Shown one piece after another: positions 5,130 through 59,525 of a DNA stretch of 64,000 nt (its first letter is position 1; the number at the start of each line of letters is the position of its first letter). Position numbers and translations under genes: made by a program. The stretch is from Angustibacter luteus (GTDB taxonomy: Bacteria > Actinomycetota > Actinomycetes > Actinomycetales > Angustibacteraceae), in NCBI RefSeq assembly GCF_039541115.1, contig NZ_BAABFP010000005.1, positions 666,447 to 730,446 on the forward strand, given 5' to 3'. The notes beneath the pieces are model-generated. The model saw nothing but the letters and a program-made list of their open reading frames with translations, was not told the DNA's origin and did not search any database.

Positions 5130-5135
5130 AGTCTA
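5130..5135 (-). promoter_or_regulatory. Probable -10 box of the terC riboswitch transcript
   Basis: TAGACT on the minus strand, a typical actinobacterial -10 hexamer, overlaps the TAG stop codon of the DUF72 gene and lies 12 nt before the aptamer, so the transcript would start a few bases before P1. No convincing -35 box is seen. Confidence 0.45.
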
Positions 5136-5969
5136 CCCGCTGCTCGGTGGCAGCCGCGCCAGCAGGGAGCGGGCGTCGTGCGGTGCGTAGCCCTTGACGT
5201 CGTTGTCGAAGTAGAGCAGGACGTCGACCCCCTGCTCGACCCAGCCGCGAACCCGCTCCGCCCAGCCGTCGAGCGCCGCCGGCGAGTAGCCGCTCGCGTA
5301 CAGCTCCTTGTCGCCGTGCAGCCGGGCGTACACGAAGTCCGCCGTGACCTCCTCCAGCATCGGCCAGTGCCGGGCTGAGTCGGCCACCACCAGCGCGACG
5401 GAGTGGGAGCGCATGAGCTGGACGGCCTCCGCGGAGCCGAAGCTGGGGTGCCGGGCCTCGACGGCGTGCCGCACCGGCCGGGTGGCCGACGTCGTCGTGA
5501 CGGCCTCCGGGACACGCTCGTCGTGTCGCGCGGCGAGGTCGGCCGCCTGCCGGCTGTCCCGGGGCAGCAGCCTCAGGAACGCGTCGACCAGCTCGGCGTC
5601 GAACGGCAGGTTCGGTGGTAGCTGCCAGAGCACTGCGCCCAGCTTCTGCTCCAGCGCGAGCAGCCCGGTGGCGAAGTAGTTCGCGACAGCCACGTCCACG
5701 TCCTTCAGCCGCTTCATGTGCGTGATGAACCGGCCACCCTTGACGGAGAACACGAAGTCGTCGGGTGTCTGCTCCGCCCAGTGCCGGAAGGTCGCCGGCT
5801 TCTGCATCGCGTAGAAGGTGCCGTTCACCTCGATCGACGTCAGCTGACGGGATGCGTACTCGAGCTCACGCCGCTGCGCGAGCCCCTTCGGGTAGAAGTC
5901 GCCCCGCCAGGCCGGGTACGTCCACCCGGCGATGCCGATCCTGGCGGTCGCCCGCTGTCGCTGGGTCAC
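5133..5969 (-). CDS. DUF72 (YecE-like) TIM-barrel protein
   Basis: A 278-residue protein of the DUF72/YecE family, whose biochemical role is not established. Family landmarks are visible: the N-terminal GIAGWTYPAWRGDFYP, the SIEVNGTFY strand with conserved Glu and Asn, a FSVKGGRFITHMKRL block, VEARHPSF in the middle and VYARLHG towards the C-terminus, ending in LLYFDNDVKGYAP. The GTG start is 4 nt after uvrB, indicating cotranscription with it. DUF72 genes have been noted near DNA-repair genes in other bacteria, but no function should be inferred from that alone. Confidence 0.9.
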   Translation of the reverse strand: MTQRQRATARIGIAGWTYPAWRGDFYPKGLAQRRELEYASRQLTSIEVNGTFYAMQKPATFRHWAEQTPDDFVFSVKGGRFITHMKRLKDVDVAVANYFATGLLALEQKLGAVLWQLPPNLPFDAELVDAFLRLLPRDSRQAADLAARHDERVPEAVTTTSATRPVRHAVEARHPSFGSAEAVQLMRSHSVALVVADSARHWPMLEEVTADFVYARLHGDKELYASGYSPAALDGWAERVRGWVEQGVDVLLYFDNDVKGYAPHDARSLLARLPPSSG

Positions 5970-5973
5970 CGGC

Positions 5974-8076
5974 TCAGGCGTGCCCCGCGCCCTGCATGGC
6001 GCGCAGCTCCTTCTTCAGGTCCCCGATCTCGTCCCGAAGCCGGGCGGCGAGCTCGAACTGCAGCTCGCCCGCCGCGCTGTGCATCTGGTCCGACAGCTGT
6101 TGGATGAGGTCCGCCAGGTCGGCGGCCGGCAGAGCCGCGAGGGCCCGGCCCTCCCCCACGCCGCGCGAGCCCTGCCCGGGGACTGGCGCCTTGCCGCGCG
6201 ACTGGTTGCGCCCCGAACCGCCGAGCAGGGCCGCGGTATCCGCGTCCTCCCGGCTGATCAGGTCCGTGATGTCCGCGATCTTCTTGCGCAGGGGCGTTGG
6301 GTCCACCCCGCGCTCCACGTTGTAGGCGACCTGCTTGGCGCGCCGCCGGTTCGTCTCGTCGATCGCGTGCTGCATGGACGGGGTGACCCGGTCGGCGTAC
6401 ATGTGCACCTGGCCGGACACGTTCCGCGCGGCCCGCCCGATCGTCTGGATCAGCGACGTGCCCGACCTCAGGAAGCCCTCCTTGTCGGCGTCCAGGATGC
6501 TGACCAGCGAGACCTCGGGCAGGTCCAGTCCCTCGCGGAGCAGGTTGATCCCCACCAGGACGTCGAACTCGCCGAGCCGCAGCTCGCGGAGCAGCTCGAC
6601 CCGGCGCAGGGTGTCGACCTCGGAGTGCAGGTAGCGCACCTGGACGCCCTGTTCGAGCAGGTAGTCCGTGAGGTCCTCGGACATCTTCTTCGTCAGCGTG
6701 GTCACCAGGACCCGCTCGTTGCGGGCGGCCCGCTCGCGGATCTCGTGCAGCAGGTCGTCGATCTGTCCCTTGGTCGGTTTGAGAACGACCTCGGGGTCCA
6801 CCAGGCCCGTCGGGCGGATGATCTGCTCCACGACGCCGTCGCCCTTGCTGAGCTCGTACTGCCCGGGCGTGGCCGAAAGGTACACGGTCTGCCCGATGCG
6901 CTCCAGGAACTCCTCCCACCTCAGCGGACGGTTGTCCATCGCGCTCGGCAGCCGGAAGCCGTGGTCCACCAGCGCCCTCTTGCGGGACATGTCCCCCTCG
7001 TACATCGCGCCGATCTGCGGCACGGTGACGTGCGACTCGTCGATGACCAGCAGGAAGTCCTCGGGGAAGTAGTCCAGCAACGTGTTCGGCGCCGTACCGG
7101 GCCCACGCCCGTCGATGTGCCGGCTGTAGTTCTCGATGCCGGAGCAGGACCCGACCTGGCGCATCATCTCGATGTCGTAGGTGGTGCGCATGCGCAGGCG
7201 CTGTGCCTCCAGCAGCTTGCCCTGCCGCTCCAGCTCGTCCAGCCGATCCGCCAGCTCGGTCTCGATGCCCGTGATGGCTCGCTCCATGCGCTGCGGGCCG
7301 GCGACGTAGTGCGTCGCCGGGAAGACGTACATCTCCGCCTCCTCGTGCACGACCTCCCCCGTCAGCGGGTGCAGCGTGTAGATGCGCTCGATCTCGTCCC
7401 CGAAGAACTCGATACGCAGCGCCAGCTCTTCGTACACCGGGATGATCTCGACCGTGTCACCACGCACCCGGAACGTCCCGCGGGTGAAGGCCAGGTCGTT
7501 GCGGGTGTACTGCATCTGCACGAACCGGCGCAGCAGGTCGTCACGCTCGATGACGTCGCCGACCTTCAGCCGGGCCATGCGGTCCACGTACTCCTGCGGC
7601 GTCCCCAGGCCGTAGATGCACGACACCGACGCGACCACGATGACGTCCCGGCGGGTCAGCAGGGAGTTCGTGGCCGAGTGCCGCAGCCGCTCCACCTCGT
7701 CGTTGATGGACGAGTCCTTCTCGATGTACGTATCCGTCTGCGCGATGTAGGCCTCGGGCTGGTAGTAGTCGTAGTACGACACGAAGTACTCGACCGCGTT
7801 GTTCGGCAGGAGCTCACGGAACTCGTTGGCCAGCTGCGCAGCCAGGGTCTTGTTGGGTGCCATCACCAACGTTGGCCGCTGAAGCTGCTCGACCAGCCAC
7901 GCCGTCGTCGCCGACTTGCCGGTGCCGGTGGCGCCCAGCAGGACGACATCCTGCTCCCCCGACTCGACGCGCCGCTTCAGGTCAGCGATCGCGGTGGGCT
8001 GGTCACCGGACGGGGTGAACTCCGAGATCACCTCGAACGGGGCGACCCGACGCTGCAGGTCGGTGGTGGGTCTCAT
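5974..8076 (-). CDS. uvrB: Excinuclease ABC subunit B
   Basis: UvrB is the damage-verifying helicase-like ATPase that receives DNA from UvrA and recruits UvrC. The 700-residue product has Walker A GATGTGKS (residues 48-55), the Tyr-rich beta-hairpin [11 protein letters not shown] that probes damage, a DESH Walker B box, the helicase motif VI region QTIGRAARN and a C-terminal UVR domain that contacts UvrC. The ATG at 8076 gives the conserved N-terminus; the open frame runs further upstream but that part is not conserved. No ribosome binding site precedes the ATG, and the promoter -10 box ends 7 nt before it, implying a leaderless mRNA. The DUF72 gene follows after 4 nt. Confidence 0.97.
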
Positions 8077-8083
8077 GGGGTCA

Positions 8084-8106
8084 ACCGTAGGCGCGACCAC
8101 CGACAA
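8084..8106 (-). promoter_or_regulatory. PafBC-type DNA-damage promoter of uvrB, leaderless
   Basis: The minus strand reads TTGTCGGTG, exactly 8 nt, then TACGGT. It is the same element as before uvrA. The -10 box ends 7 nt before the uvrB ATG, so the predicted start point coincides with the start codon. Two perfect matches before the two partner genes make chance unlikely. Confidence 0.82.
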
Positions 8107-8120
8107 CCGGCGAGCGGTAC

Positions 8121-9323
8121 TCAGCCGGGCGGTGCCCAGCCCGATCGCCGCCCCCAGGCGACGGCCCGGTCCACAGCCACCGCGAACCACGCCTCCTTCG
8201 CGTCGGCGTACTCCGCGGCGCTGTCGGTCGCGGCGGCCAGCCGCTGCTTCTCCCCCTGGTAGGCGCTCCGCTCGACCGCATCGGCGCGCCACCAGTCGCG
8301 CAGCAGGAGGGCGGCCCGCCAGCCGGGGCTGCCGACGACCCGCACGTGCAGGTTCACCGCGCGGCCCGGGTCGGCGTTGGCGTGGAACCGCTTCGACCAC
8401 ACTGCCGGGTCCGCCGCGCTCTCGAGCACCGCGTGCGGGTTGTCTCTCGTCACACCAACGACCCGGGGGAAGCCCGCCGCTGCCAGAGCCACGACGACCT
8501 CGTCCGCGTCGGCCAACGAGCGAACCCCGAGCTGCAGGTCGACGACGTCCTTGGCAGCGAGCCCGGGCACGGCCGTCGAGCCCACGTGCTGGGTCCCGCA
8601 ACCCAGCGCACCCGCAGCGAGGTCGATCCGGGCCGCCAGCCGCGCCGCCTGCGCCGGCCAGCTGCCGTCGTACGGCACGATCTCGGCGCGGGCGGGCCGG
8701 TCAGCGCGCGTCCCCGCGCGCAGGTTGGCCTCAAAGGGCTGGAGCCGCCCCTCCCAGAGGACCGACAGGTCAGCCGCCACCTCGGGCGCAGGCCGGTCGT
8801 TGTCCAGCCAGACGTCGGCGGCAGCGCGCCGCTGCCCGTCGTCGGCCTGCGCCGCGATCCGGGCGCGGACGTCGTCCCGGGACATCGCTCGCGAGGCCAG
8901 CAGGCGGTCGATGCGGACCCGCTCGGAGGCGTGCACCACCAGCACCAGGTGGTAGAGCGCGCCCATCTGCTTCTCCACGATGAGCGGGACGTCGTGCACG
9001 ACGATCGCCTCAGGACCCGCGTCGTCGAGCACCTGTGCCGTGCGCTGAGCCACCAGCGGGTGGGTGATCTGCTCCAGCGCGCGCCGCCGACTCTCGTCCG
9101 CGAAGACCAGGCGCCCCAACGCCGCGCGATCCAACGACCCATCTCCGGCGAGCACCGCGGGTCCGAACTCGGCTGCGACGGCGGCCAGGCCCGGCGTCCC
9201 AGGTGCCAGCACCTCGCGAGCGAACCGATCGGCGTCCGCTACGACAGCACCCAGGTTCGCCAGCTGGGCCGCGACAGTCGACTTGCCCGCCCCGATCCCG
9301 CCGGTCAGCCCGATCCTCAGCAC
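8121..9323 (-). CDS. coaE: Dephospho-CoA kinase fused to a GrpB (UPF0157) domain
   Basis: The N-terminal ~195 residues are dephospho-CoA kinase, which phosphorylates the 3'-OH of the ribose in the last step of coenzyme A synthesis: P-loop [12 protein letters not shown] (residues 5-16), the DADRFAREV motif and the [10 protein letters not shown] strand. From about residue 215 the chain is a GrpB/UPF0157 nucleotidyltransferase-like domain, with [33 protein letters not shown] and the FRDWWRADA-type helix region (seen as [15 protein letters not shown]). This fusion is common in actinobacteria, where the second domain has been linked to CoaE folding or stability. The GTG start has no ribosome binding site; a TAGGGT box at 9330-9335 ends 6 nt upstream, so the transcript may be leaderless. 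Confidence 0.93.
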
Positions 9324-9359
9324 GCGCCGACCCTAGCGGCCGGACGCGCGAGTGCGACG

Positions 9360-9397
9360 CGAAGGGGCCCCGCACCAGACGGTGCGGGGCCCCTTCG
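9360..9397. terminator. Strong hairpin terminator after rpsA
   Basis: A perfect 17-bp inverted repeat (9360-9376 with 9381-9397) with loop AGAC lies between the rpsA stop and the coaE start. There is no long T-tract, as is usual for GC-rich actinobacteria. Confidence 0.88.
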
Positions 9398-9412
9398 TTC
9401 GAGCGTGGTGGA

Positions 9413-10909
9413 TCAGGCGCCGGTCAGCTTCTCACGAAGCGCGGCGAGCGCCTCGTCGGAAGCCAGCGTGCCCTCGCCCTGAGCCTGCGGGGCGTCGGCC
9501 GGGGTAGCGGCGACGTCCGCGGCCGTCGTCTCCGAGGAGTACGACGTCGGGGTGTCGCCCTCGGCGCGGGCCTCGGAGTCGGCCTTGGCCGCCTCCTCGA
9601 TCTGCGTCTTGTGCGCCTCCCAGCGAGCGTGTGCCTCGGCGTACTGCTTCTCCCAGACCTCGCGCTGCGCCTCGTAGCCCTCGAGCCAGTCGTTGCTCTC
9701 CTGGTCGAAGCCCTCGGGGTACTTGTAGTTGCCCGCGTCGTCGTACTCGGCCGCCATGCCGTAGAGCGTGGGGTCGAACTCGGTGACCTGAGCGGACGTA
9801 CCGTCGTTGGCCTGCTTGAGCGACAGCGAGATGCGGCGACGCTCCAGGTCGATGTCGATCACCTTGACGAAGATCGAGTCGCCGACCTGGACGACCTGCT
9901 CCGGGATCTCGACGTGGCGCTCTGCCAGCTCCGAGATGTGCACCAGACCCTCGATGCCCTCGTCGACGCGCACGAACGCGCCGAAGGGGACGAGCTTGGT
10001 GACCTTGCCCGGGACGACCTGACCGATCGCGTGCGTGCGTGCGAACTGCTGCCAGGGGTCCTCCTGCGTCGCCTTGAGCGACAGCGAGACGCGCTCGCGG
10101 TCCATGTCGACGTCCAGGACCTCGACCGTGACCTCCTGGCCGACCTCGACGACCTCGGACGGGTGGTCGATGTGCTTCCAGGACAGCTCGGAGACGTGCA
10201 CCAGACCGTCGACGCCGCCGAGGTCCACGAACGCACCGAAGTTGACGATGGAGGAGACCACACCGGAGCGGACCTGGCCCTTCTGCAGGGTCTGCAGGAA
10301 GGTCTGGCGCACCTCGGACTGGGTCTGCTCGAGCCACGCGCGACGCGACAGGACCACGTTGTTGCGGTTCTTGTCGAGCTCGATGATCTTGGCCTCGAGC
10401 TCCTTGCCCACGTAGGGCTGCAGGTCGCGGACGCGGCGCATCTCGACCAGCGACGCCGGCAGGAAGCCGCGCAGCCCGATGTCGAGGATCAGGCCACCCT
10501 TGACGACCTCGATCACCGTGCCGGTGACGATGCCGTCCTCTTCCTTGACCTTCTCGATCGTGCCCCAGGCGCGCTCGTACTGCGCGCGCTTCTTGGACAG
10601 GATCAGGCGACCCTCCTTGTCCTCCTTCTGGAGGACCAGAGCCTCGACCTCATCGCCGACCTTGACGACCTCGTTGGGGTCGACGTCGTGCTTGATGGAG
10701 AGCTCGCGGGAGGGGATGACACCCTCGGTCTTGTAGCCGATGTCGAGCAGGACCTCGTCCCGGTCGACCTTGACGATGACCCCTTCGACGATGTCTCCGT
10801 CGTTGAAGTACTTGATGGTCTCGTCGATGGCGGCGAGGAAGTCCTCGGCCGAGCCGATGTCGTTGACCGCAACCTGAGGGGCGCGGGTCTCGGTGGTGCT
10901 GGCAGTCAT
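9413..10909 (-). CDS. rpsA: 30S ribosomal protein S1
   Basis: S1 binds mRNA on the 30S subunit and aids translation initiation. The 498-residue product has four S1/OB repeats at about 36-105, 120-190, 206-275 and 293-362, each ending in the typical ISLS/VSLSLKA strand; the third has SIVNFGAFVDLGGVDGLVHVSELSW. After the repeats comes an acidic, Trp- and Tyr-rich actinobacterial tail ending in EALAALREKLTGA. The ATG at 10909 begins MTASTTETRAP, which fits the family; the frame stays open another 99 nt without conservation. It is flanked downstream by a strong hairpin terminator and upstream by a good promoter with a palindrome at the likely start point. Confidence 0.96.
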   Translation of the reverse strand: MTASTTETRAPQVAVNDIGSAEDFLAAIDETIKYFNDGDIVEGVIVKVDRDEVLLDIGYKTEGVIPSRELSIKHDVDPNEVVKVGDEVEALVLQKEDKEGRLILSKKRAQYERAWGTIEKVKEEDGIVTGTVIEVVKGGLILDIGLRGFLPASLVEMRRVRDLQPYVGKELEAKIIELDKNRNNVVLSRRAWLEQTQSEVRQTFLQTLQKGQVRSGVVSSIVNFGAFVDLGGVDGLVHVSELSWKHIDHPSEVVEVGQEVTVEVLDVDMDRERVSLSLKATQEDPWQQFARTHAIGQVVPGKVTKLVPFGAFVRVDEGIEGLVHISELAERHVEIPEQVVQVGDSIFVKVIDIDLERRRISLSLKQANDGTSAQVTEFDPTLYGMAAEYDDAGNYKYPEGFDQESNDWLEGYEAQREVWEKQYAEAHARWEAHKTQIEEAAKADSEARAEGDTPTSYSSETTAADVAATPADAPQAQGEGTLASDEALAALREKLTGA

Positions 10910-10965
10910 GTAGTGGGGGCTCCGATGCGGACAGATGAGTCGTGGTGGACAGGATGAAGAGTGTT

Positions 10966-10983
10966 GTCGCACACGTGTGCGAC
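10966..10983. promoter_or_regulatory. 18-bp perfect palindrome at the rpsA transcription start
   Basis: GTCGCACACGTGTGCGAC is identical to its reverse complement. It covers the predicted +1 of the rpsA promoter (-10 at 10989-10994). It could be a repressor operator or a 5'-terminal mRNA hairpin. No regulator can be named. Confidence 0.6.
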
Positions 10984-10988
10984 CCCCC

Positions 10989-11018
10989 ACCCTATCGATC
11001 TGGTCCACAGCGGGTCAA
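10989..11018 (-). promoter_or_regulatory. Housekeeping promoter of rpsA
   Basis: On the minus strand TTGACC (11013-11018) is followed by an 18-nt spacer and TAGGGT (10989-10994). Start of transcription would fall near 10982, leaving a leader of about 73 nt before the rpsA ATG. Confidence 0.68.
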
Positions 11019-11039
11019 CGCGGGCCGGCGCGCCCGGTG

Positions 11040-12041
11040 CTAGCGACGACCGCGCACGGCCGCGAGCGAGCGAAGCGCCGTCCGCGCCACCACCACGGGT
11101 GCCGGCGCGGCCGCGCCGCGTTCCGGTCGGGCCGACAGCTCGAGCAGCGCGAAGACGTCCAGGTCGGCGGCCCGCTGAAGCCAGTCGTCGTCGAGTCCAC
11201 CGAGGGTGGCGGTGGACACCGTGCCGTCCTCGTAGATCCCGGTGTGCAGAGCGTCCACCAGGCCGCGTCGGAAGGCCGACCACGAGGCGGCGCCCACCTC
11301 GCCGCTACCGGCGCCGTGATCGGCCGCGCGGAGCAGGTTACCGACGTCCTCGGTCCACTCCCCGCCGTGCGAGAACTCCCAGTCCAGCACGCCGCGCAAC
11401 CGCCCGGTGTTCGGGTCGACGATGAGGTTCTTGCCGTTGAGGTCGCCGTGCACCAGCGACGCCGGACGAGGAGGGCCCATCGCCAGTCGCTGTGCGGCGG
11501 CAGCGACCGCGGCACGAAGCCCGGGCGTGCTTCGCCGGCCGAGCCCGGCAGCAGCCAGGCCCGCTTCGAGGTGCTCGTACCAGGCGATGAGATCGGCCTG
11601 GGACGGCGGCCACTGACTGGTCCGCAGGTCGGCGTCCGCCCACGGGCCGTGGCCCTCCGCCCGCACCTCACGCAACCGGGTCACGAGGCGGGCGCACTGG
11701 CGGCCGAGGGCGTTGGACGCCGGCAGCGGCAGCCCTCGGTCGAGCAGCTGGTCGGCGCGTTTGCCCTCGACCTCACGGGTCACGATGTGCGGCGGCAGGC
11801 CGCCGACCCCACGGGGCTCGGCCGCGAGGATCTTGGGCAGCGGAACCTGACCGGACAGCCGTCGCATCACGGCCAGGTCGAGGACGGCCTGGCTCGGCTT
11901 GCGCAGGTACAGGCGGACGAACGCGGGCTCCCGGAACCAGGTGCCCGCGAAGGTCTCGCCACTGAATCCGCCGGTGGCCACCTGCGGCTCGTGCAGCACC
12001 TTGGCGGCGATGGACAGCGGATCGGACTTCGACACGTGCAC
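11040..12041 (-). CDS. Aminoglycoside phosphotransferase (APH) family kinase-like protein
   Basis: A roughly 333-residue cytosolic protein of the APH/choline kinase fold. It carries the catalytic loop VHGDLNGKNLIVD and the metal-binding LDWEFSHGGEWTEDVGNLL motif. Before these is a typical N-lobe (ATGGFSGETFAGTW, then a FVRLYLRKP strand). Such proteins phosphorylate small hydroxyl compounds; resistance to aminoglycosides should not be assumed in this housekeeping setting. The start is uncertain: the frame opens with a TTG at 12083, 9 nt after the upstream stop, while GTGs at 12041 and 12035 give a more usual N-terminus. None has a clear ribosome binding site. Cotranscription with the VWA gene just upstream is likely. 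Confidence 0.8.
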   Translation of the reverse strand: MHVSKSDPLSIAAKVLHEPQVATGGFSGETFAGTWFREPAFVRLYLRKPSQAVLDLAVMRRLSGQVPLPKILAAEPRGVGGLPPHIVTREVEGKRADQLLDRGLPLPASNALGRQCARLVTRLREVRAEGHGPWADADLRTSQWPPSQADLIAWYEHLEAGLAAAGLGRRSTPGLRAAVAAAAQRLAMGPPRPASLVHGDLNGKNLIVDPNTGRLRGVLDWEFSHGGEWTEDVGNLLRAADHGAGSGEVGAASWSAFRRGLVDALHTGIYEDGTVSTATLGGLDDDWLQRAADLDVFALLELSARPERGAAAPAPVVVARTALRSLAAVRGRR

Positions 12042-12091
12042 ATCGCAGCACAGGCTGCGTCCGTTGTCAGCGGGCGCGCCCAAGTGGTGGG

Positions 12092-13900
12092 CTATTCAGA
12101 CAGCGTGGCGAGCAGAACGCGCTCGATGTCCGCCGGGCTGGCCGCGATGAAGCTCTGGCCACCGGTGGCCTTCGCGATGGCGGACAGCGACGCCGCGTCC
12201 GCCTGCGCTCCGTACGCCACCGTGAACACCCGCACCGGCTTGTCGGCGTTCTGCTCCTTCTTGAGCGTCGACACCAGCGCCTTCAGCGAGACGCTGCCCG
12301 GGTCGTCGTTCCTGCCGTCGCTCAGCACCACCACGACGTTCTGGTCGGCCCGCCACTTGCTGCGGACCTCGCGGACCGCGGCCAGGGTCGTGTCGTAGAG
12401 ACCGGTGTCACCGCGGGCGGTCAGGTGCGAGATGCCACTGCGCACGGCGTCGCGGCGGGTCCCCCCGCCGACGGCGTCGCTGGCGGCGCCGAGCGGGACG
12501 ACGACGCGGTAGTCCTTGCTGCCGCTCAGGTGCCGGGAGAACTCCCAGAGCCCGATCGACGAACGGTCCGACGTCGAGACGATCGCCGAGGTCAGCGCCT
12601 TCTGCGCGAGCTGGAGGCGGGTCAGGCCCAGCTTGGGCACGGCCTGCTTCATGGACCCCGAGACGTCCACGGCCAGCAGCACCGAGCCGGTGCGCTCCAA
12701 CGCCGACCAGGACTGCAGGGCCTTGGAGATGGACTGCAGGGTGGGCTGGGACAGCTCCAGGGTCGCCGGCTTGACCTCGTGCGCGGTATCGCCGGCGCCG
12801 ACCGTCGCCGGCCCGGTCTCGGTGCCGGAGTCGCCGTTCGGGATGCGCCAGCCGTCCGCCGCGAAGGCCCGGTTGCCGTCCGTGGAGGTCAGGAACTGGC
12901 GGAACGACTCAGCAGCCGTCATGGCGCGGGCGCGGTCCAGGGAGGTGCCGTACAGCGGCAGGTACCCCACCTTGGCCGCCGCACCGCTCACCCCGACGGT
13001 GACGGGGGCCAGCTTCTCTCGCGGGCCGCTGGCGTTGAAGGCCCGCACCTCGCGCTCGGTGGAGGGCGTGATGATCGATGCCTTGAGCGCCTCGTCGGAG
13101 CTCAGCTGGGGGTCCGCCAGGGGCTCCAGGGCCTTCGACTCGTCCAGGTCCAGGTTCGTCAGGGCGTTCTGCACGCGCAGCATGCCGACCCGCAGCTGGT
13201 CCGCGTTCGTGCCCGCACCGAGCTTGGCGAACAGGGTCATCAGACCGTCCAGCCCCGCAGTCGACTTCTGCGGGTCCTGCCAGGCGACCCTTACGCGACC
13301 CCACTCCGGGTGACCGAACTTGCCCCAGCCGGCCGGGTCCTGGGCGAGGGCGACGAGCTGGTCGAGCTCAGCCTGACGCTTGGGCCAGCCCAACGACTTC
13401 GCCATCGGCTCCGGCATCGCCGCGACCACCGGGGAGCTGGCCAGCACGCTGAACACGTCCGGCAGCAGGCGGTCGACCTCGGGGCGGCGGGACAGCACCT
13501 TGGCCCAGGTCGCCGACTCGGGCACCCAGACGTCGAAGCCGGGGTCGCGGCGCAGCGAGGCGGCCGAGACGAGCGCCGCGTTCACCTTCGGCACGTCCAT
13601 GGCGACGACGTCCACACTCACGCACGCGTCGCCCACCTGGGGCTTGGTCTGCTCGAACGCACGCGCCTCCTGCTGCACCGCATCCGCCACCGAGGACGAA
13701 GCGGCGACGCGCAGCGTCACCGGGCTGCCGGAACAGGACACGGCGCCACGCGCCTGGTAGCCCCACCACGCCAGGCCCGACGTGCCGACCACGATGATCA
13801 ACAGGGTCGCCAGGCCGGCCACGGTCCGCGCCTGGTGGCGGGACTTGCGGGCCCGGTGCCGCGATCGCAGCTGCGCGCGAGTCAGCGTGTCGGTTGTCAT
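12092..13900 (-). CDS. Membrane-anchored protein with periplasmic-binding-like and von Willebrand A domains
   Basis: A 602-residue protein. After a basic N-terminus there is one transmembrane or signal segment (VAGLATLLIIVVGTSGLAWW, about residues 28-47). The middle, about 60-400, looks like an ABC solute-binding domain (VTLRVAASSSVADAVQ; FDVWVPESATWA; FRQFLTSTDGNRAFAADGWRIP). The last ~200 residues are a VWA domain with the MIDAS motif DVSGSM, a later Thr/Asp pair (RGDTGLYDT) and VLSDGRND. The protein probably works outside the membrane and binds a partner through the metal site; its ligand is unknown. The ATG at 13900 follows GAGGGTGG. The phosphotransferase gene follows closely. This architecture is known in actinobacteria but not functionally defined. 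Confidence 0.82.
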   Translation of the reverse strand: MTTDTLTRAQLRSRHRARKSRHQARTVAGLATLLIIVVGTSGLAWWGYQARGAVSCSGSPVTLRVAASSSVADAVQQEARAFEQTKPQVGDACVSVDVVAMDVPKVNAALVSAASLRRDPGFDVWVPESATWAKVLSRRPEVDRLLPDVFSVLASSPVVAAMPEPMAKSLGWPKRQAELDQLVALAQDPAGWGKFGHPEWGRVRVAWQDPQKSTAGLDGLMTLFAKLGAGTNADQLRVGMLRVQNALTNLDLDESKALEPLADPQLSSDEALKASIITPSTEREVRAFNASGPREKLAPVTVGVSGAAAKVGYLPLYGTSLDRARAMTAAESFRQFLTSTDGNRAFAADGWRIPNGDSGTETGPATVGAGDTAHEVKPATLELSQPTLQSISKALQSWSALERTGSVLLAVDVSGSMKQAVPKLGLTRLQLAQKALTSAIVSTSDRSSIGLWEFSRHLSGSKDYRVVVPLGAASDAVGGGTRRDAVRSGISHLTARGDTGLYDTTLAAVREVRSKWRADQNVVVVLSDGRNDDPGSVSLKALVSTLKKEQNADKPVRVFTVAYGAQADAASLSAIAKATGGQSFIAASPADIERVLLATLSE

Positions 13901-46184: not shown

Positions 46185-47378
46185 GTGACGATGGGCGGCG
46201 GGCACCCCTACGACGGGCGACCCGCGACCACTTCCGCCTATCCGAACGGGTCGGCCCTGACCGACCACCGCGACGAGGCCGTGGTGGTTGGCGGCGGCTT
46301 CTACGGCCTACGGGTAGCCCTGTTCCTGCGTCAGCGGCTCGGCTTCCGGCACGTGCGCGTGTTCGAGATGCTGGACTCGGTCATGGAACGGGCCAGCTAC
46401 GTCAACCAGGCCCGCGTCCACAACGGCTACCACTACCCGCGGAGCATCCTCACCGCCTACCGCTCACGGGTGAACTTCCCCGGCTTCGTGGACGAGTACC
46501 GGGACGCCGTCGTCGACGACTTCGACCACTACTACGCCATCGCTCGCGCTCACTCCAAGGTGAACGCCCGTCAGTTCGAGCTGTTCTGCACCCGGATCGG
46601 CGCGGCCTGGCGCCCGGCGCCGACGCCGATCGCGGCGATGTTCCACCCCGGTCGCATCGAGCGCAGCTACGCCGTCCGCGAGCCCGCCTTCGATGCACGG
46701 GTCCTGCGCGAGCTGCTGCTCGACCGGATCTCGCGGGCCGGCGGCATCGACATCAGCCTGGGCGACGAGGTGAGCTCGATCGCGGCTCTCCCGGACGGCC
46801 GAGTGCTGCTCGAGGCCAGCAGTGGCAGCTACACCGCCGACCGCGTCGTCGGAGCGGGCTACTCCCGGATCAACGTCCTGCACCGTTCGTCGCACCTCGA
46901 GCAGGTGGCGCTGCAGCACGAGATCAGCGAGATGGCGCTGGTCGAGCTGCCACCGGCGCTGCGCGGACTGGGTCTGACGGTGATGGATGGCCCGTTCTTC
47001 TCCGTGATGCCCTTCCCGAGTCGAGGCCTGCACACGCTCTCGCACGTTCGCTTCACCCCGCGCTACCGGTGGCGGGACGGCAGCGGGCAGCCCGCACTCG
47101 ACCCCCAGGCCGTGTTCTCGATGGCAGACCGGACCTCCGGCTTCACCGGGATGCGGGCCGATGTCATCCGGTACGTTCCTGCGCTGGCTGCCATGCGGCA
47201 GGTGGACTCCCTGCGAGAGGTGAAGACGGTGCTGGCCAAGAGCGACCTCGACGACAGCAGGCCGATCCTCTACCGGCCCGACCACGGCATCGCGAACTAC
47301 ACCTGCATCATGGGCGGCAAGCTGGACAACATCTACGACGTCCTCTCCGAGCTGGAGCACGACAGTGTCAGTGCGTAG
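46185..47378 (+). CDS. FAD-dependent oxidoreductase of a glycan cassette
   Basis: About 397 residues. An N-terminal dinucleotide-binding motif (EAVVVGGGFYGLRVALFL) marks a DAO/amine-oxidase-type FAD protein. Distinctive are VNQARVHNGYHYPRS and the later ADRVVGAGYSRINVL; the C-terminus has a second conserved block DHGIANYTCIMGGKLDNIYDVL. Proteins of this kind sit in surface-polysaccharide clusters, but the reaction is not known; oxidation of a sugar or lipid-linked sugar is an inference. The start is GTG 46185 or ATG 46191 behind GGAGGA. First gene of a five-gene unit; the next gene starts 14 nt before its stop. Confidence 0.78.
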   Translation: MTMGGGHPYDGRPATTSAYPNGSALTDHRDEAVVVGGGFYGLRVALFLRQRLGFRHVRVFEMLDSVMERASYVNQARVHNGYHYPRSILTAYRSRVNFPGFVDEYRDAVVDDFDHYYAIARAHSKVNARQFELFCTRIGAAWRPAPTPIAAMFHPGRIERSYAVREPAFDARVLRELLLDRISRAGGIDISLGDEVSSIAALPDGRVLLEASSGSYTADRVVGAGYSRINVLHRSSHLEQVALQHEISEMALVELPPALRGLGLTVMDGPFFSVMPFPSRGLHTLSHVRFTPRYRWRDGSGQPALDPQAVFSMADRTSGFTGMRADVIRYVPALAAMRQVDSLREVKTVLAKSDLDDSRPILYRPDHGIANYTCIMGGKLDNIYDVLSELEHDSVSA

Positions 47379-48357
47379 CCCCGTCGAGGGGAAGGTCGAC
47401 GCGTTCGTCTCGGTCATCGCCGTCCTGGACGACGAGGTGCGTGACCCGGTGGCGTTCCTCGCATCGCTGCATGAGGTGGTGCAGGCCAACTACACCAACT
47501 ACGAGGTGGTCGCGGTCCTCAACGGCTTGTCGGCCGAGCGCATCCCGCAGATCCGCGCGCTGCTGTCGACCCTCCCGTGCATCCGGGTGCTGAGGCTGTC
47601 GCGCTCGTTCGGGGTGGACACCGCCATCTTCGCGGGGCTGGAGTCCGCCATCGGGGACTACGTCGTGAACCTGACCCCCGAGATCGACCCCGTGACGGTG
47701 GTGGTCGATCTGGTGACCCTGGCCATGCAGGGCAACGACGTCATCCAGGGCATCAGCACCACGCGGGTCGCCGGCAGCTGGCCCCGGCGGGCCGTCCGGC
47801 ACTACTTCCTCGCCTACAACCGTCGGTACCTGCACGTCGAGATCCCCGAGCAGGAGACCTACCTCGTCTGCCTGACCCGACGGGCGATGAACTCGCTGGC
47901 GAACGCCTCGCGCAGCCAGCGATACCTGCGGCACCTGATTCGGCACATCGGCTACCGACTGACCGACTACACGTACGCGACGGCGGACGCCTCGCACCGG
48001 GCTCGCTCGATCCGCAACGACGTCATCAAGGGCGCCGAGATGATCACGAGCTACTCCTCGCACCCCCTGAGGTTCGTGACGTTCATCGGGGTCCTGGCCG
48101 GTCTGGCGAACCTCCTGTACGCCGTCTACGTCGTCGGGCTACGCCTCTTCCGGTCCGACATCGCCGCGGGCTGGACCACGACGTCCCTGCAGCTGTCAGC
48201 CATGTTCTTCGTCTTCTCGCTGATCCTGGCCGTGCAGGCCGAGTACATCGGACGCGTCCTGGCGGAGACCCGCAAGGAGCCGGCGTACTTCATCATGGAA
48301 GAGCTCGAGAGCGACACCCTCATCGCCGACCTCGACCGCCGCAACCTGAGCAGCTGA
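47365..48357 (+). CDS. GT2-family glycosyltransferase with two C-terminal membrane helices (GtrB-like), atypical DxD
   Basis: A 330-residue GT-A fold protein. Its N-terminal half fits polyprenyl-phosphate glycosyltransferases (VSVIAVLDDEVRDPVAFLASL; the SRSFGVDTAIFAGLESAIGDYVVNL block equals the usual NFGKEAAI...G/ADGD region). C-terminal helices at about 235-255 and 272-292 match the GtrB/DPM1-like membrane anchor. The usual DADLQDPPE motif is replaced by TPEIDPVT, so metal binding may be altered or lost. It would make a polyprenyl-phosphate sugar on the inner face of the membrane. The GTG start overlaps the oxidoreductase gene by 14 nt. Confidence 0.8.
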   Translation: MSVRSPVEGKVDAFVSVIAVLDDEVRDPVAFLASLHEVVQANYTNYEVVAVLNGLSAERIPQIRALLSTLPCIRVLRLSRSFGVDTAIFAGLESAIGDYVVNLTPEIDPVTVVVDLVTLAMQGNDVIQGISTTRVAGSWPRRAVRHYFLAYNRRYLHVEIPEQETYLVCLTRRAMNSLANASRSQRYLRHLIRHIGYRLTDYTYATADASHRARSIRNDVIKGAEMITSYSSHPLRFVTFIGVLAGLANLLYAVYVVGLRLFRSDIAAGWTTTSLQLSAMFFVFSLILAVQAEYIGRVLAETRKEPAYFIMEELESDTLIADLDRRNLSS

Positions 48358-48368
48358 GAGGACCAGCG

Positions 48369-49196
48369 TTGACCACCGCACTCCCGCTCCCCGGTCAGGT
48401 GCCCACGTACCGGGCCGACGTCCTCGCTCCGCGCGCGCACCGCTACTGCGTCGTCGTGTTCGTCATCAACGAGGGCGAGAAGATCCGGCAGCAGCTCACC
48501 CGCATGGTCCCGCTCACGGAGCAGGTGGACGTGGTCGTGGCGGACGGCGGGAGCACCGACGGTTCGCTGGACCTGCCCTACCTCGGCGAGCAGCGGGTGC
48601 GCGCCCTGCTGACCAAGACGGGGCCCGGCAAGCTGAGCGCGCAGATGCGGATGGCCTTCGCCTGGGCCTTGGGCGAGGGCTACGAGGGCGTCGTGGTGAT
48701 CGACGGGAACGGCAAGGACGGCGTGGAGGCCGTGCCTGAGTTCGTGCGGCTGCTGGATCAGGGGTACGACCACATCCAGGGGTCTCGCTTCATCCCGGGC
48801 GGGCAGGCGGTCAACACGCCGCTGGTCCGGCTCGTGTCCGTCCGGTTGCTGCACGCCCCCGCCATCAGCCTGGCCGCGGGACGCCGGCACACCGACACGA
48901 CCAACGGCTTCCGGGCCTACAGCTCCCGACTCCTGACGGACCCCGAGGTGGCGGTGTTCCGCGACGTGTTCGTCACCTACGAGCTGCACTACCACCTGGC
49001 CGTCGAGGCATCGCGCCTGCCGCGGTTCAGGGCGGTGGAGACGCCCGTGAGCCGCACCTACCCGCCGCACGGGAAGACCCCGACCAAGATCAGCCCGGTC
49101 AGGGGCAATGCGCACGTGCTCGGTGTGCTGTTCAAGGCGGTCACCGGCCGCTACCGGTACCGGCCGACGGCCGCGGCGACGGACCAGCCGCGATGA
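48369..49196 (+). CDS. GT2-family glycosyltransferase (soluble, DPM-like)
   Basis: A 275-residue GT-A protein: VVVFVINEGEKIRQQLTRM, the acidic VVVADGGSTDGSLDL, VVVIDGNGKDGVEAVPEF with the metal-binding Asp residues, then IQGSRFIPGGQAVNTPL and the TDTTNGFRAYSSRLL acceptor block. It lacks membrane helices. Its substrate is unknown; it may act with the preceding membrane-bound transferase. The start codon is TTG at 48369, with AGAGGA about 8 nt upstream and no nearer ATG or GTG, and lies 11 nt after the previous stop. The next gene overlaps its stop as ATGA. Confidence 0.83.
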   Translation: MTTALPLPGQVPTYRADVLAPRAHRYCVVVFVINEGEKIRQQLTRMVPLTEQVDVVVADGGSTDGSLDLPYLGEQRVRALLTKTGPGKLSAQMRMAFAWALGEGYEGVVVIDGNGKDGVEAVPEFVRLLDQGYDHIQGSRFIPGGQAVNTPLVRLVSVRLLHAPAISLAAGRRHTDTTNGFRAYSSRLLTDPEVAVFRDVFVTYELHYHLAVEASRLPRFRAVETPVSRTYPPHGKTPTKISPVRGNAHVLGVLFKAVTGRYRYRPTAAATDQPR

Positions 49197-49972
49197 GCGG
49201 CACGGGCGACGCCCTGGTGGGGTGGACCGGCTTCGTCGGCGGCAACCTCTCCCGTCAGCACGACTTCGCCCACCGCTACGCCTCGGCCACGGCACCCGAG
49301 ATGGCGGGACACCGTTTCGATCGCGTGGTGTTCTCCGCGGCGCGGGCGGAGAAGTGGCGCATCAACCAGGACCCCGTGACCGACCGGGCGCACATCGAGG
49401 ACCTCAAGCGCATCCTGTCGTCGTTCAGGGCAGAGCGGCTCGTGCTCGTCTCCACCGTCGACGTCTACGCGAAGCCCGTCGGAGTGGACGAGACCACGCC
49501 GCTGCCGGCGCCAGGGCTCCACCCCTACGGCGCGCACCGGTTCGAGCTCGAGGAGTTCGCCCGCAGCCGCTTCGACAACGTGCTCGTCGTCCGCCTACCC
49601 GGCCTGTTCGGGCCCGGGATCAAGAAGAACGTGATCTTCGACCTGCTGACCGGCAACAACCTGTCGGCGATAGACCACCGGGGCAGCTTCCAGTACTACG
49701 ACCTGAGGCGCCTGTGGGCGGACATCGGCGTCGCGCTGGATGCCGGGTTCCCCCTGGTGAACTTCGCCACCGAACCCGTCACGACGGGGAAGGTCGCCCA
49801 GGAGTGCTTCGACCTGGACTTCCGCAACGAGCCGCCGGGCTCGTCCCCGGGCACGTACGACGTCCGGTCGGTGCACGCCGACGCCTTCGGAGGCCACGGC
49901 GGCTACCTGCAGTCGGCGGACCAGGTGCTGGCGGACCTGCGGTCCTTCGTCCTCGATGAGCGGAGCCGCTAA
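49193..49972 (+). CDS. NAD(P)-dependent epimerase/dehydratase-like protein with altered catalytic Lys
   Basis: A 259-residue short-chain dehydrogenase-like protein. It begins with a Rossmann motif (LVGWTGFVGGNLSRQ) instead of the common GxxGxxG with Ala, has VVFSAARAEKW, LVLVSTVDVYAKP and the active-site region HPYGAHRFELEEF. The usual YxxxK is YGAHR, so the catalytic Lys is replaced by Arg. VRLPGLFGPGIKKNVIFDLL and a QYYDLRRLWADI substrate block follow. It may be a nucleotide-sugar enzyme with unusual chemistry or a non-catalytic binder. It overlaps both neighbours (ATGA before, TAATG after). Confidence 0.77.
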   Translation: MSGTGDALVGWTGFVGGNLSRQHDFAHRYASATAPEMAGHRFDRVVFSAARAEKWRINQDPVTDRAHIEDLKRILSSFRAERLVLVSTVDVYAKPVGVDETTPLPAPGLHPYGAHRFELEEFARSRFDNVLVVRLPGLFGPGIKKNVIFDLLTGNNLSAIDHRGSFQYYDLRRLWADIGVALDAGFPLVNFATEPVTTGKVAQECFDLDFRNEPPGSSPGTYDVRSVHADAFGGHGGYLQSADQVLADLRSFVLDERSR

Positions 49973-50793
49973 TGGCGCTCGCCGTCTCGAACATCGCCTG
50001 GGAGGCGGCCGAGGAACCGATCGTGGCGGCCGAGCTCGCTCGGCTGGGCGTCCAGGCCGTCGAGGTCGCGCCGACCAAGGTGTTCGCGGACCCGCTGCGG
50101 GTGTCGGACGCGGAGGTCGCCGGCTACCGGCAGTTCTGGGCCGATCACGGCGTCCGCGTGGTGGCGTTCCAGTCGATGCTCTTCGGTCATCCCGAGCTGA
50201 CCGTCTTCGACGGGGCGCAGACGCGCGCTGCCACGACGGCCCACCTGGTCGGGTTCCTCGACCTCGCGGAACGGCTGGACGCCGGCGTGCTGGTCTTCGG
50301 GTCGCCGCGCAACCGACGGGTCCCCGACGCGATGACGGCGGAGCAGGTCGACGACATCGCTGTCGCGTTCTTCAGCGACCTGGGTCGGGAGGCGGCCGAG
50401 CGCGGCGTCCTGCTGTGCATCGAGCCCAACCCACCTGCCTACGACTGCAACTTCGTGACGACTGCGGGCGAGGGTGCGGCGCTGGTCGCCGCCGTCGACT
50501 CCCCCGGCTTCGGGTTGCACCTGGACGCGGCGGGCATGACGCTGGCCGGGGACGACGTCCACGCAGCGATCACCGCAGCGCCCGGTCTGCGGCACTTCCA
50601 CGTCAGCGCACCCCAGCTGGGTGAGCCGGAGGAGGACGTCGTGGACCACGCGTCAGCCGCACGCGCGCTGGGTGAGGTCGGCTACGCCCACCACGTGTCC
50701 ATCGAGATGCGCTCCGTGCCCGGCGGGGACACCGTGGACCGGGTGGCGCGCGCCGTGGGTCTGGCGCGCCGGCACTACGGTGCGCTGGTCTGA
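49972..50793 (+). CDS. Sugar phosphate isomerase/epimerase-like TIM-barrel protein
   Basis: A 273-residue AP-endonuclease/xylose isomerase-like TIM barrel: LAVSNIAWEAAEEPIVAAEL, VEVAPTKVFADPL, VVAFQSMLFGHPELTVF, GVLVFGSPRNRRVPDAM, GVLLCIEPNPPAYDCNFVTT with metal-binding Glu, FGLHLDAAGMTL with Asp/His, LRHFHVSAPQLGEP with His and SIEMRSVPGGDTVDRV with the last Glu. The metal site is therefore complete. It probably isomerises or epimerises a sugar intermediate of the cassette. The ATG overlaps the previous stop by one base. Its 3' end overlaps the convergent GtrA-like gene by 19 bp. Confidence 0.82.
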   Translation: MALAVSNIAWEAAEEPIVAAELARLGVQAVEVAPTKVFADPLRVSDAEVAGYRQFWADHGVRVVAFQSMLFGHPELTVFDGAQTRAATTAHLVGFLDLAERLDAGVLVFGSPRNRRVPDAMTAEQVDDIAVAFFSDLGREAAERGVLLCIEPNPPAYDCNFVTTAGEGAALVAAVDSPGFGLHLDAAGMTLAGDDVHAAITAAPGLRHFHVSAPQLGEPEEDVVDHASAARALGEVGYAHHVSIEMRSVPGGDTVDRVARAVGLARRHYGALV

Positions 50794-51203
50794 GCCGCGC
50801 CGTACATCGAGCGCCGGGCCACGAAGTTCCAGACGTAGACGACCGCGGTCGCCAGGGCCTTGGACCACAGGTAGAACAGCCCCAGCCGGTCGGTGAGCAG
50901 CCACATCAGCCCGTCCAGCAGGAAGAGCCCAACCAGGCCGATGGCTGCGAAGAGCAGGAAGCGAGCACCAGCGTGGACGATCTTCGGCGACGAGAACACG
51001 TAGCGCTCGCTGAGCACGTAGGTGACGACCAACCCGCAGAGGAAGCCGGCCGTGGCCCCGACCAGGTGGTTGACTCCGAGCCCGCTGGTGAGGGCGACGA
51101 GTACGCCGACGTCAACGAGCAGGCCGACCGCAGCCACCCCGAAGTAGTCGCGGACCTGCCGCACGACGTCGCTGTGGCGCTGGAGCACGGCCGGCACGCT
51201 CAC
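50775..51203 (-). CDS. GtrA family membrane protein (probable polyprenyl-phosphate sugar flippase)
   Basis: A 142-residue protein with four predicted helices (YFGVAAVGLLVDVGVLVAL; LVGATAGFLCGLVVTYVLSERYVF; FLLFAAIGLVGLFLLDGLMWLL; LATAVVYVWNFVARRSMY). The helix-2 end TYVLSERYVF and the final NFVARRSMY are hallmark GtrA positions. GtrA proteins are thought to flip undecaprenyl-phosphate sugars outward. The GTG overlaps the stop of the GT-C gene (GTGA), so the pair is coupled. Tail-to-tail overlap of 19 bp with the isomerase gene. Confidence 0.88.
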   Translation of the reverse strand: MSVPAVLQRHSDVVRQVRDYFGVAAVGLLVDVGVLVALTSGLGVNHLVGATAGFLCGLVVTYVLSERYVFSSPKIVHAGARFLLFAAIGLVGLFLLDGLMWLLTDRLGLFYLWSKALATAVVYVWNFVARRSMYGAAQTSAP

Positions 51204-52735
51204 GCCGCGCAGCGGTAGAGGCCGATGCCGGCCGCCCGCTCGATCGGCGCGCAGCTGATGCCAGCCTGCTGCAACGGGACCAGCAGGTCGTCCTTGGCGG
51301 GCCGCGGACCGCTCAGCAGGCAGCCACTGCCCTCGCGGCGGAAGTAGTCCACGGCCCGCGCCTGGTAGGCCGGCATGTTGTCGCGGACCTGCTGCAGCCA
51401 CGATTGCGACCCCAGCCCCGAGCGCGTGGGCACCAGGCCCTCGAGCTCGATCCCGAGTCGGTCCCTGGCGACGTACATCTGCGCAGCAGGCTGGTAGCTG
51501 TAGGCCGTGTAGGTGGCGCTGCAGGCCGCATCCCCGGCCGCCAGGACCCGGCCGACCTCCTCCTGCCGGCGCGCCGCACCGTAGAAGGCCACGCCGAGCA
51601 CCCCCGCGACGGAGGCGGCCACCAGACCGACGGCCAGCAGTCGCACGACCGTGGACCGGTTGGTCCAGCCCGCCACGGCCTGCTGGAGCGTGCTCACCGC
51701 CGACCCGAGCGCGAGTCCGATGGCCGGCGTCACGAACAGCACGTGCCGTGGCTTGCTGAACGGTGACAGGCCCAGGACCGTGGCGACGGCCATCGCCGCC
51801 ATCGCGGCCACCAGCACCAGGTAGGGGTACCAGGCTTCGGCGTCCCGGCGCCGCCCCACCACGGCACCGGCCGCCACCACGACGAGCACCGCGGTGCCGA
51901 AGAGCAGGAACAGGGGCTTGCCCGTGGGGGCGTAGATGCTGAGGACGCCGTTCACCAACGCACCGAGACCCACGCTGTCGTACACCGGCAGTGACAGCTG
52001 GTAGACCGCAGCCGGCTTCACGACCAGGAGGTAGGACAGCAGGAACACGGCGAGGTACCCGCCGCCCAGCAGGACCAGGGGCAGGCGGGCTCGCACCAGC
52101 GCCGGGCGGTCGGCCACCCACGAGATGAGCACCGCGGTGGCGCCCACCGACGCGGTCGCGATCACCGCCGTGTTCGAGAAGGGCAGCGCCAGCACCGACA
52201 CCGCGAAGAACCAGCCGAGTGCTCGCGTCGAGAAGCGCTCGCGCACCAGCGTCACGCCCGTGGCCAGGATGAGCGCGCCCGCGGCGTACTCGAACGCGTA
52301 GTGCTTGAACATTCCCGCTTCCCAGACCACCCACATCGCCAGGCCCCCGGCGAGCACCGCACACAGTCGCCCGAGTGCGGTCTCGATCATGCGGGCCGCC
52401 CGGCGCAGGGCGAGGATGCCCACCACGAAGGCGATCAGGCTGGGCAGCCGCAGGACGATCTCGTTCAGCCCGAACGCGTCGACGAGCAGCTTGTCCAGCA
52501 CGTACACGCCGTACGGCATGGTCTGCTCGAACAAGGCCATCGGCTGCCCCGGGGCCAGCCAGCCCTGCCCGGCCACGGCCTGGTAGACCATCGCCTCGTC
52601 GAACCAGAAGTTGCGGTTGGTGACCTCGATGGTCACCACCAGGAGCACGACGAAGGCGCCGAGGCCGATGTCCGTCCAGCGCTCCCACCGCCGCCGCGTC
52701 GGCGGTTCCTGCGGTCGACGAGCGCGGTTGAGCAT
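51200..52735 (-). CDS. GT-C (ArnT/PMT-like) integral membrane glycosyltransferase
   Basis: A 511-residue multispanning protein with about ten to eleven helices. The first extracytoplasmic loop has the acidic pair of GT-C enzymes in RNFWFDEAMVYQAVAGQGWL, and GLNEIVLRLPSLIAFVVGIL is the typical ArnT/PMT block. The last ~110 residues form a soluble domain with several Cys (AACSATYTAYS; GSGCLLSGP; GISCAPIE). It should take a sugar from a polyprenyl-phosphate donor outside the membrane and add it to a surface acceptor. A TAGGAT box (52742-52747) lies 6 nt before the ATG and includes AGGA, so it can be read as a leaderless -10 or as a ribosome binding site. Coupled to the GtrA gene. Confidence 0.83.
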   Translation of the reverse strand: MLNRARRPQEPPTRRRWERWTDIGLGAFVVLLVVTIEVTNRNFWFDEAMVYQAVAGQGWLAPGQPMALFEQTMPYGVYVLDKLLVDAFGLNEIVLRLPSLIAFVVGILALRRAARMIETALGRLCAVLAGGLAMWVVWEAGMFKHYAFEYAAGALILATGVTLVRERFSTRALGWFFAVSVLALPFSNTAVIATASVGATAVLISWVADRPALVRARLPLVLLGGGYLAVFLLSYLLVVKPAAVYQLSLPVYDSVGLGALVNGVLSIYAPTGKPLFLLFGTAVLVVVAAGAVVGRRRDAEAWYPYLVLVAAMAAMAVATVLGLSPFSKPRHVLFVTPAIGLALGSAVSTLQQAVAGWTNRSTVVRLLAVGLVAASVAGVLGVAFYGAARRQEEVGRVLAAGDAACSATYTAYSYQPAAQMYVARDRLGIELEGLVPTRSGLGSQSWLQQVRDNMPAYQARAVDYFRREGSGCLLSGPRPAKDDLLVPLQQAGISCAPIERAAGIGLYRCAA

Positions 52736-59393: not shown

Positions 59394-59415
59394 GGGCCCG
59401 CTCGAAGACGGACCC
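59394..59415 (-). promoter_or_regulatory. Possible switching hairpin after the SAM-IV aptamer
   Basis: GGGUCC at the 3' edge of the aptamer can pair with GGGCCC (59394-59399) across a 10-nt loop, just before the uORF ribosome binding site. It would compete with the aptamer 3' end. Confidence 0.35.
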
Positions 59416-59525
59416 GCGCTTGCCGGTCGCAGGTGCAGACCGGCCAGGTCATCACCCGGGGCACCCCACCGCGGTTGGAGGGTTGCCGGCCAGCAAGCCG
59501 GGGCTACGCGCTGGCACTCATGACC
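59408..59525 (-). promoter_or_regulatory. SAM-IV riboswitch upstream of metY-metX
   Basis: The leader begins GGUCAUGAGUGCCAGCG and closes P1 with AUGACC (59447-59452). P2 is GCCAGC/GCUGGC, followed by the CCGGCAACCCUCC and GGUGGGGUGCCCCGG core, and after P1 a 3' part with the GCCGGUC/GACCGGC hairpin and GGCAAGCGCGGGUCC. Order and sequences match the actinobacterial SAM-IV class, which senses S-adenosylmethionine and shuts off methionine genes. Confidence 0.92.

Follow-up and report, generated by a model that had tools for sequence, protein, structure and literature searches.

A conserved gene module of Angustibacter luteus and diverse bacteria that may build and export an unusual lipid-linked sugar

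A cassette of seven genes lies within a 64,000-nucleotide stretch of the Angustibacter luteus genome (contig NZ_BAABFP010000005.1, positions 666,447 to 730,446), hereafter the window. Five rightward genes encode an FAD oxidoreductase (FAD), a membrane-anchored GT2-like protein (GTm), a soluble GT2 protein (GTs), an SDR-family protein (SDR) and a TIM-barrel protein (TIM); the two others encode a GtrA-type small membrane protein (GtrA) and a polytopic membrane protein (GTC). We found that the five rightward genes form a conserved module, which may be mobile or patchily kept. We propose, with moderate confidence, that this module builds and exports an unusual sugar, in that a lipid-linked sugar would be oxidised, epimerised and reduced, then flipped and transferred to a surface acceptor.

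Conservation of the five core genes

Searching named genomes with the FAD protein gave at least 597 stretches, of which 589 were confirmed, and the best 80 loci were kept by FAD similarity rather than by cassette content. Core genes were counted from tblastn-based calls; a crude gene caller, which lost some overlapping genes, served for the count of polytopic proteins. Three loci in which the FAD reading covered only 10–68 residues (L072, L079 and L092) were scored as present but left out of the FAD alignment. Homologues of FAD, GTm, GTs, SDR and TIM lay together within 10.2 kb in 67 of the 80 loci, on a single strand in all but one of these full cassettes (66/67), and the hosts were Actinobacteria, Proteobacteria, Planctomycetes, Paenibacillus and a Saccharibacterium. 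The non-pathogenic Glaciihabitans tibetensis and Demequina sediminis are among the carriers.

Gene order was GTm-FAD-SDR-TIM-GTs in 51 of the 67 full cassettes. The window's own order, FAD-GTm-GTs-SDR-TIM, was found in nine (L014, L015, L016, L017, L018, L022, L026, L033 and L089), and the remainder comprised GTm-SDR-TIM-GTs-FAD in four and three singletons. The span had a median of 5.0 kb and a maximum of 10.2 kb, the latter in L032, where it is inflated because TIM and GTs are each present in two copies. In this Pseudomonas locus two TIM/SMR-type/GTs sets (3211–5340 and 11369–13384) stand either side of one GTm-FAD pair. The GTm gene adjoined the FAD gene in 78 of 80 loci; in the two exceptions, L021 and L064, FAD is at one end of the retrieved sequence. 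Locus L015 (TM7 phylum sp. oral taxon 352, 4324–11082) holds the entire five-gene core, and its copies are about as identical to the window's as the actinobacterial ones are.

We also followed the genes through 149 Pseudomonas genomes, the genus of L032. The FAD profile matched in nine or possibly more, because only 13 first-look candidates were scored per genome, and the SDR profile in seven, all of them among the nine and each with its SDR match within ~1.5 kb of the FAD match; the hypergeometric probability of this co-occurrence is 1.3e-10, with the kinship of the genomes ignored. The pairwise distance matrices of the five core proteins were correlated, with r of 0.86–0.97 over 63 shared members, and none of 999 permutations reached the observed value for any of the 10 protein pairs; these correlations carry no species-tree control, so part of them reflects the common ancestry of the hosts.

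Closer to the window, the cassette is sparse. In 198 genomes of the order the sole strong FAD match was the window's own, nine others being weak (E 3.8e-5 or worse). In the class, six of 394 genomes reached 1e-20 with FAD: the window's own, two close relatives and three distant ones. Both close relatives (G539 and G273, 43–45% FAD identity) had all five core genes. In the distant ones, G549, G524 (16 kb) and G407 (4 kb), at 26–33% FAD identity, the other six genes were absent at E 1e-3, and membership of the FAD family alone therefore does not imply the cassette.

Predicted functions of the products

Residue counts refer to alignments of the window with the genome-contig loci and at most three loci from plasmids. 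The AlphaFold (AF2) model of FAD has a predicted local distance difference test score (pLDDT) of 88.9, and its best VIA match is E. coli GlpD (2r45; Z 31.2, root-mean-square deviation (rmsd) 3.0, 345 residues aligned), tied with 3dme and followed by glycine oxidase 4ysh and others; L-2-hydroxyglutarate dehydrogenase was also matched. GlpD and L-2-hydroxyglutarate dehydrogenase are secondary-alcohol oxidisers. The block NQARxHxG(Y)HYPR is invariant in 81 aligned sequences except for the bracketed Tyr, which is kept in 77. DprE1 is likewise an FAD enzyme, with an FAD domain that we take to be of the VAO family; no domain of this type was found in FAD, which instead matches Pfam DAO and is modelled nearest GlpD. 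From the modelled fold, we propose that FAD may convert a secondary hydroxyl of a sugar to a ketone.

The TIM profile matches D-psicose and D-tagatose 3-epimerases (6e-16 to 9e-16) and 3-keto-D-glucoside 4-epimerase 6wn6 (2.6e-11), and hhalign pairs TIM with K-12 YcjR at a probability of 97.7. Four residues, E151, D185, H210 and E245, are invariant in 73 of 73 sequences; they are presumably the metal ligands known from ketose 3-epimerases. The complete site that the preliminary description of this DNA had noted is thus present, but in place of the isomerase suggested there TIM is, by homology, a probable keto-sugar epimerase with an intact metal site. The same description had called the SDR altered, and so it is: Tyr112-xxx-Arg116 is invariant in 74 of 74 sequences, with Arg for Lys throughout and the canonical Tyr-xxx-Lys in none of them, and the three Gly of the GxxGxxG nucleotide motif are kept in all 74. 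The AF2 model of this 259-residue protein (pLDDT 96.6) best matches MoeE5 (6kvc; Z 23.8, rmsd 2.8, 246 aligned), with UDP-galactose 4-epimerases tied (Z about 23–24 and rmsd 2.8–2.9 for the group). We propose that SDR, modelled as GalE/RmlD-like, acts as a keto-sugar reductase. Structure prediction, which had been recommended for every product, gave a GlpD/DAO fold for FAD and a GalE/RmlD-like fold for SDR.

The two GT2 proteins differ in their motifs. GTm, with hydrophobic segments at 235–299, scores 89 bits against NCBIfam PgfS (cut-off 500) and lacks DxD in all 78 aligned members; in the comparison GT2s, YfdH keeps DVD and ArnC keeps DAD. Asp is retained at the first DxD position in 63 of the 78 and at the first motif in 74, and the window's GTm is the sole copy with Asp at neither. 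Residual or different activity may therefore persist outside the window's copy, and we propose that GTm is either a non-canonical glycosyltransferase or a pseudo-glycosyltransferase partner of the FAD enzyme. GTs scores 43.9 bits against the AglJ model (cut-off 325) and matches dolichol-phosphate-mannose synthase 5mlz in the PDB (E 1.1e-5). Both Asp of its DGxSxD motif, its DGN and its KD are each kept in 72 of 73 sequences, and no membrane anchor is predicted. Because DxD is missing throughout GTm, GTs is the likeliest candidate for the polyprenyl-phosphate-sugar synthase.

Small flippase-like proteins are exchanged among cassettes, GtrA in the window and SMR/EamA-type proteins in most relatives. 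An SMR/EamA-type protein was found within 2.5 kb in 49 of the 67 full cassettes, a GtrA-type protein in six and both in none; the SMR-type profile was built from 25 of the same loci and the GtrA profile from six loci plus the window, so part of this count is circular. GtrA relatives adjoin the cassette in L014, L016 and L022, and we propose GtrA as the flippase of the lipid-linked sugar. Of the 67 full cassettes, 61 had a polytopic protein of at least 350 residues no further than 3.5 kb away, a count made with the crude gene caller and without a background rate. These proteins fall in several clusters, and those scanned had no Pfam family above cut-off.

GTC itself has many hydrophobic segments, the first of them followed by an acidic FWFDEA, an arrangement that we take to be GT-C-like, and gave no Pfam or PDB sequence match. 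Relatives of GTC were found in none of the 80 loci, all proteins called there included, and at 1e-10 in none of 295 other class genomes, the window's own being recovered as the 296th. None was found in six cassette-carrier genomes either, a result of little weight alone as that set held no genome with a known match. By the terms of the preliminary description, its proposal would be refuted if the seven genes never occurred together elsewhere. The literal seven indeed occurred nowhere else that was searched, and the exact set as one conserved unit was rejected, but the five-gene core does recur.

Gene layout and genomic setting

All seven reading frames were confirmed in the window (Table 1), and the six Pfam scores exceed their curated cut-offs, narrowly for both GT2 proteins and for Epimerase. 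The rightward genes had been described as tightly overlapping, which is true of three junctions (14 bases for FAD/GTm, 4 for GTs/SDR and 1 for SDR/TIM), whereas GTm and GTs are separated by an 11-base gap. The leftward genes do form a coupled pair facing the core, as described: GTC and GtrA overlap by 4 bases, and GtrA converges on TIM with a 19-base overlap.

Table 1. Genes of the cassette, with window coordinates
Gene	Coordinates	Strand	Product	Pfam match
FAD	46185..47378	+	DAO/GlpD-superfamily FAD oxidoreductase	PF01266 (DAO), 36.3 bits
GTm	47365..48357	+	membrane-anchored GT2-like, hydrophobic C-terminal segments	PF00535, 24.7 bits
GTs	48369..49196	+	soluble DPMS/AglJ-like GT2, TTG start	PF00535, 25.4 bits
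SDR	49193..49972	+	short extended SDR	PF01370 (Epimerase), 23.9 bits
TIM	49972..50793	+	AP_endonuc_2-type, probable keto-sugar epimerase	PF01261, 91.6 bits
GtrA	50775..51203	-	small membrane protein	PF04138 (GtrA_DPMS_TM), 68.6 bits, cut-off 26.1
GTC	51200..52735	-	511-aa polytopic membrane protein, candidate GT-C transferase	no Pfam family

The cassette is flanked by a DUF456 gene and a sigma-70 gene, and is preceded by a gene of the gyrase B type (parE or gyrB) and by DUF7455. In one other genome of the genus, G004, the DUF456–sigma gap is ~1.4 kb and holds none of the seven genes, and in G001, from another family of the order, ~130 bases separate DUF456 from the sigma gene. The absence of the cassette from this gap in relatives implies either local gain in the window's lineage or loss in the relatives. 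The G004 gap (contig 14; L121, 9999–11275) holds a polysaccharide deacetylase (PF01522, 105.5 bits) and a short open reading frame without a Pfam family; with the deacetylase in place of the cassette, the gap looks like a variable site. A phage origin was considered and rejected, one weak partial match being found among 50,697 phage records, and so were repeats marking an insertion, for which there were short, weak matches only. A promoter and terminator scan found none, a scan that is uninformative here. Elsewhere in the window, a SAM-IV riboswitch (117 bits) lies at 59411–59525 on the minus strand.

Proposed pathway, its alternatives and known systems

In the pathway that we propose, GTs would move a common sugar from a nucleoside diphosphate (NDP)-sugar onto undecaprenyl or decaprenyl phosphate. 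The DxD-less GTm would keep the FAD enzyme at the membrane, where this enzyme would convert one of the hydroxyls of the lipid-linked sugar into a ketone; next, the metal-dependent TIM would invert the carbon adjoining the ketone, and SDR would reduce the ketone, the trio thereby altering the stereochemistry of the sugar. GtrA, or an SMR/EamA-type protein in most relatives, would flip the lipid-linked sugar, and the polytopic protein would pass it to a surface acceptor.

Several points weigh against this pathway. We infer all of its reactions, their order, the lipid-linked substrate and the acceptor; an NDP-linked or free sugar, in place of a lipid-linked one, may be the substrate of the trio. 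The DAO-fold matches of the FAD model are mostly oxidases and dehydrogenases of amines or amino acids, the Arg of SDR could mean weak or different chemistry, GTs carries DGN and not a strict DxD, and GTC belongs to no known family. At least one core gene is missing in 13 of the 80 loci, although in five of them the locus is no longer than 8.2 kb, so that the gene may be outside the retrieved sequence. Twelve of 67 full cassettes have no small flippase by either profile, one of them (L089) having an EamA-family protein there, and six of 67 have no polytopic protein nearby by the crude caller.

The first alternative, a possible but rather unlikely one, is that the trio edits a nucleotide sugar in the cytosol to give a rare NDP-sugar, which the GT2 proteins load onto a lipid or a growing glycan. 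The fold of SDR, nearest to NDP-sugar 4-epimerases and reductases, favours this, but at 259 residues the protein is shorter than its best-matched structures (278–338 residues). Variant cassettes also argue against it. In L044, L057, L062 and L084 (at ~7.0–11.3 kb of each locus) GTm-FAD precedes a GT2, an aldo-keto reductase and GtrA, and SDR, TIM and GTs are all absent (families assigned by Pfam in L044 and L057 members); in L091 GTm-FAD is accompanied by a GtrB-like GT2 and, at the contig end, by a partial aldo-keto reductase, and in L071 GTm-FAD is present and GT2, aldo-keto reductase and GtrA were not recognised. The extra GT2 beside variant cassettes keeps DxD in five of five. In these six loci, which lack SDR, TIM and GTs, the FAD gene stays with the membrane GT2-like gene, an indication that its product acts at the membrane. 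Replacement of SDR and TIM by an aldo-keto reductase also fits oxidise-(epimerise)-reduce editing, since a lone ketone reductase in their place is what oxidation and reduction predict if the oxidised carbon is the only one that the variant epimerises.

We consider it quite unlikely that the five genes make a cytoplasmically assembled polysaccharide repeat or glycolipid, with the window's GtrA and GTC as unrelated neighbours. The opposite orientation of these two genes to the core, the lack of GTC at any other cassette and the position of two plasmid-borne cassettes among polysaccharide genes would agree with such an arrangement. Against it, GtrA relatives flank three other cassettes and SMR/EamA-type proteins stand beside 49 of 67, and the G004 gap lacks all seven genes, as if they were gained or lost jointly. 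Sugar catabolism unrelated to surface glycans, with YcjQRS-like oxidation, epimerisation and reduction, is highly improbable: TIM is homologous to the YcjR type, but its conserved partners include a pair of GT2-like proteins as well as small membrane proteins, and the Pfam matches of the seven products include no family of sugar kinases, glycoside hydrolases or ABC importers.

Of these readings we favour the lipid-linked pathway. A wider version of it, which we offer tentatively and which probably reaches too far, is that stereochemistry is edited on a polyprenyl-phosphate carrier by a flavoenzyme, a TIM barrel and an Arg-type SDR, with a former GtrB as the scaffold presenting the sugar to the FAD enzyme, and with interchangeable flippases and transferases delivering the product to different acceptors, in a widespread and undescribed system. 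If the lipid-linked pathway is correct, one portable gene set would explain rebuilt surface sugars in many unrelated bacteria; on-carrier sugar editing, which in the printed cases that we met concerns pentoses, would extend to a new enzyme set; and GTm would be a clear case of a GtrB-like protein conserved beside a flavoenzyme despite loss of its catalytic motif. The cassette is small enough for expression and assay in a laboratory host.

The preliminary description knew of no system with this exact set of genes, and our literature searches on the gene set, its parts and an inactive GtrB likewise found no description of the cassette; subscription papers were mostly outside their coverage, so that absence from print is unproven. 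Its parts can nevertheless be compared with several known systems. The Arn pathway (ArnC, ArnD and ArnT, by annotation) shares with the proposed pathway the alteration of a lipid-linked sugar after transfer (by the deformylase ArnD) and a subsequent membrane transferase, but its chemistry and modifying enzymes differ. The GtrA/GtrB/Gtr system (E. coli K-12 yfdG-yfdH-yfdI) shares a small flippase-like protein, here of the same family (PF04138), a GT2 with hydrophobic C-terminal segments and a large membrane protein. This three-part logic, as the preliminary description had it, stands in so far as these three kinds of protein recur with sugar-modifying enzymes. GTm, however, is no normal GtrB: DxD and anchor do not occur together in one protein of the cassette, GTm having an anchor without DxD and GTs a DGN without an anchor, and four further enzymes are present.

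The guloside–glucoside interconversion of E. coli YcjQ, YcjR and YcjS shares the proposed oxidise-epimerise-reduce logic and a TIM-barrel keto-sugar epimerase that is homologous to TIM, which has the metal-site residues of this type. The precedent for this sequence of reactions comes from the K-12 annotation (YcjQ 3-dehydrogenase, YcjR 4-epimerase, YcjS 3-dehydrogenase) and from PMC11543891, where the names YcjQ and YcjS are swapped relative to that annotation. YcjQ and YcjS belong to another dehydrogenase family, presumably Gfo/Idh/MocA, of which no member was found among the cassette oxidoreductases, these matching the DAO and Epimerase families in Pfam; the setting of YcjQRS is catabolic, without a GT2 or a flippase.

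Two further systems, both treated in one source, concern editing on the carrier itself. DprE1/DprE2 epimerise decaprenyl-phosphate ribose to arabinose (PMC11127046), and so share with the proposed pathway a multi-enzyme epimerisation of a polyprenyl-phosphate sugar, there by two enzymes; the cassette differs in the GlpD/DAO fold of its FAD enzyme and in the added TIM-barrel epimerase. The pentofuranose O-antigen modification of Citrobacter youngae O1/O2 resembles the proposed pathway in its lipid-phosphate-linked donor, its auxiliary epimerase and its use of a flippase and a membrane transferase, and the authors expect the O2 epimerase, ORF13, to act after transfer to undecaprenyl phosphate and before flipping (PMC11127046). 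That system uses a polyprenyl phosphoribose synthase, a single YxxxK SDR epimerase, a MATE-family flippase and GT136 (PMC11127046), whereas the cassette has GT2 proteins, FAD with TIM and a YxxxR SDR, GtrA or an SMR/EamA-type protein, and the orphan GTC; no match to a prenyltransferase-type family was found among its seven products with Pfam or NCBIfam. In general terms the cassette falls within lipid-linked sugar modification, a kind of system already known, and what is unusual in it is a DxD-less GT2 beside a flavoenzyme, together with an Arg-type SDR.

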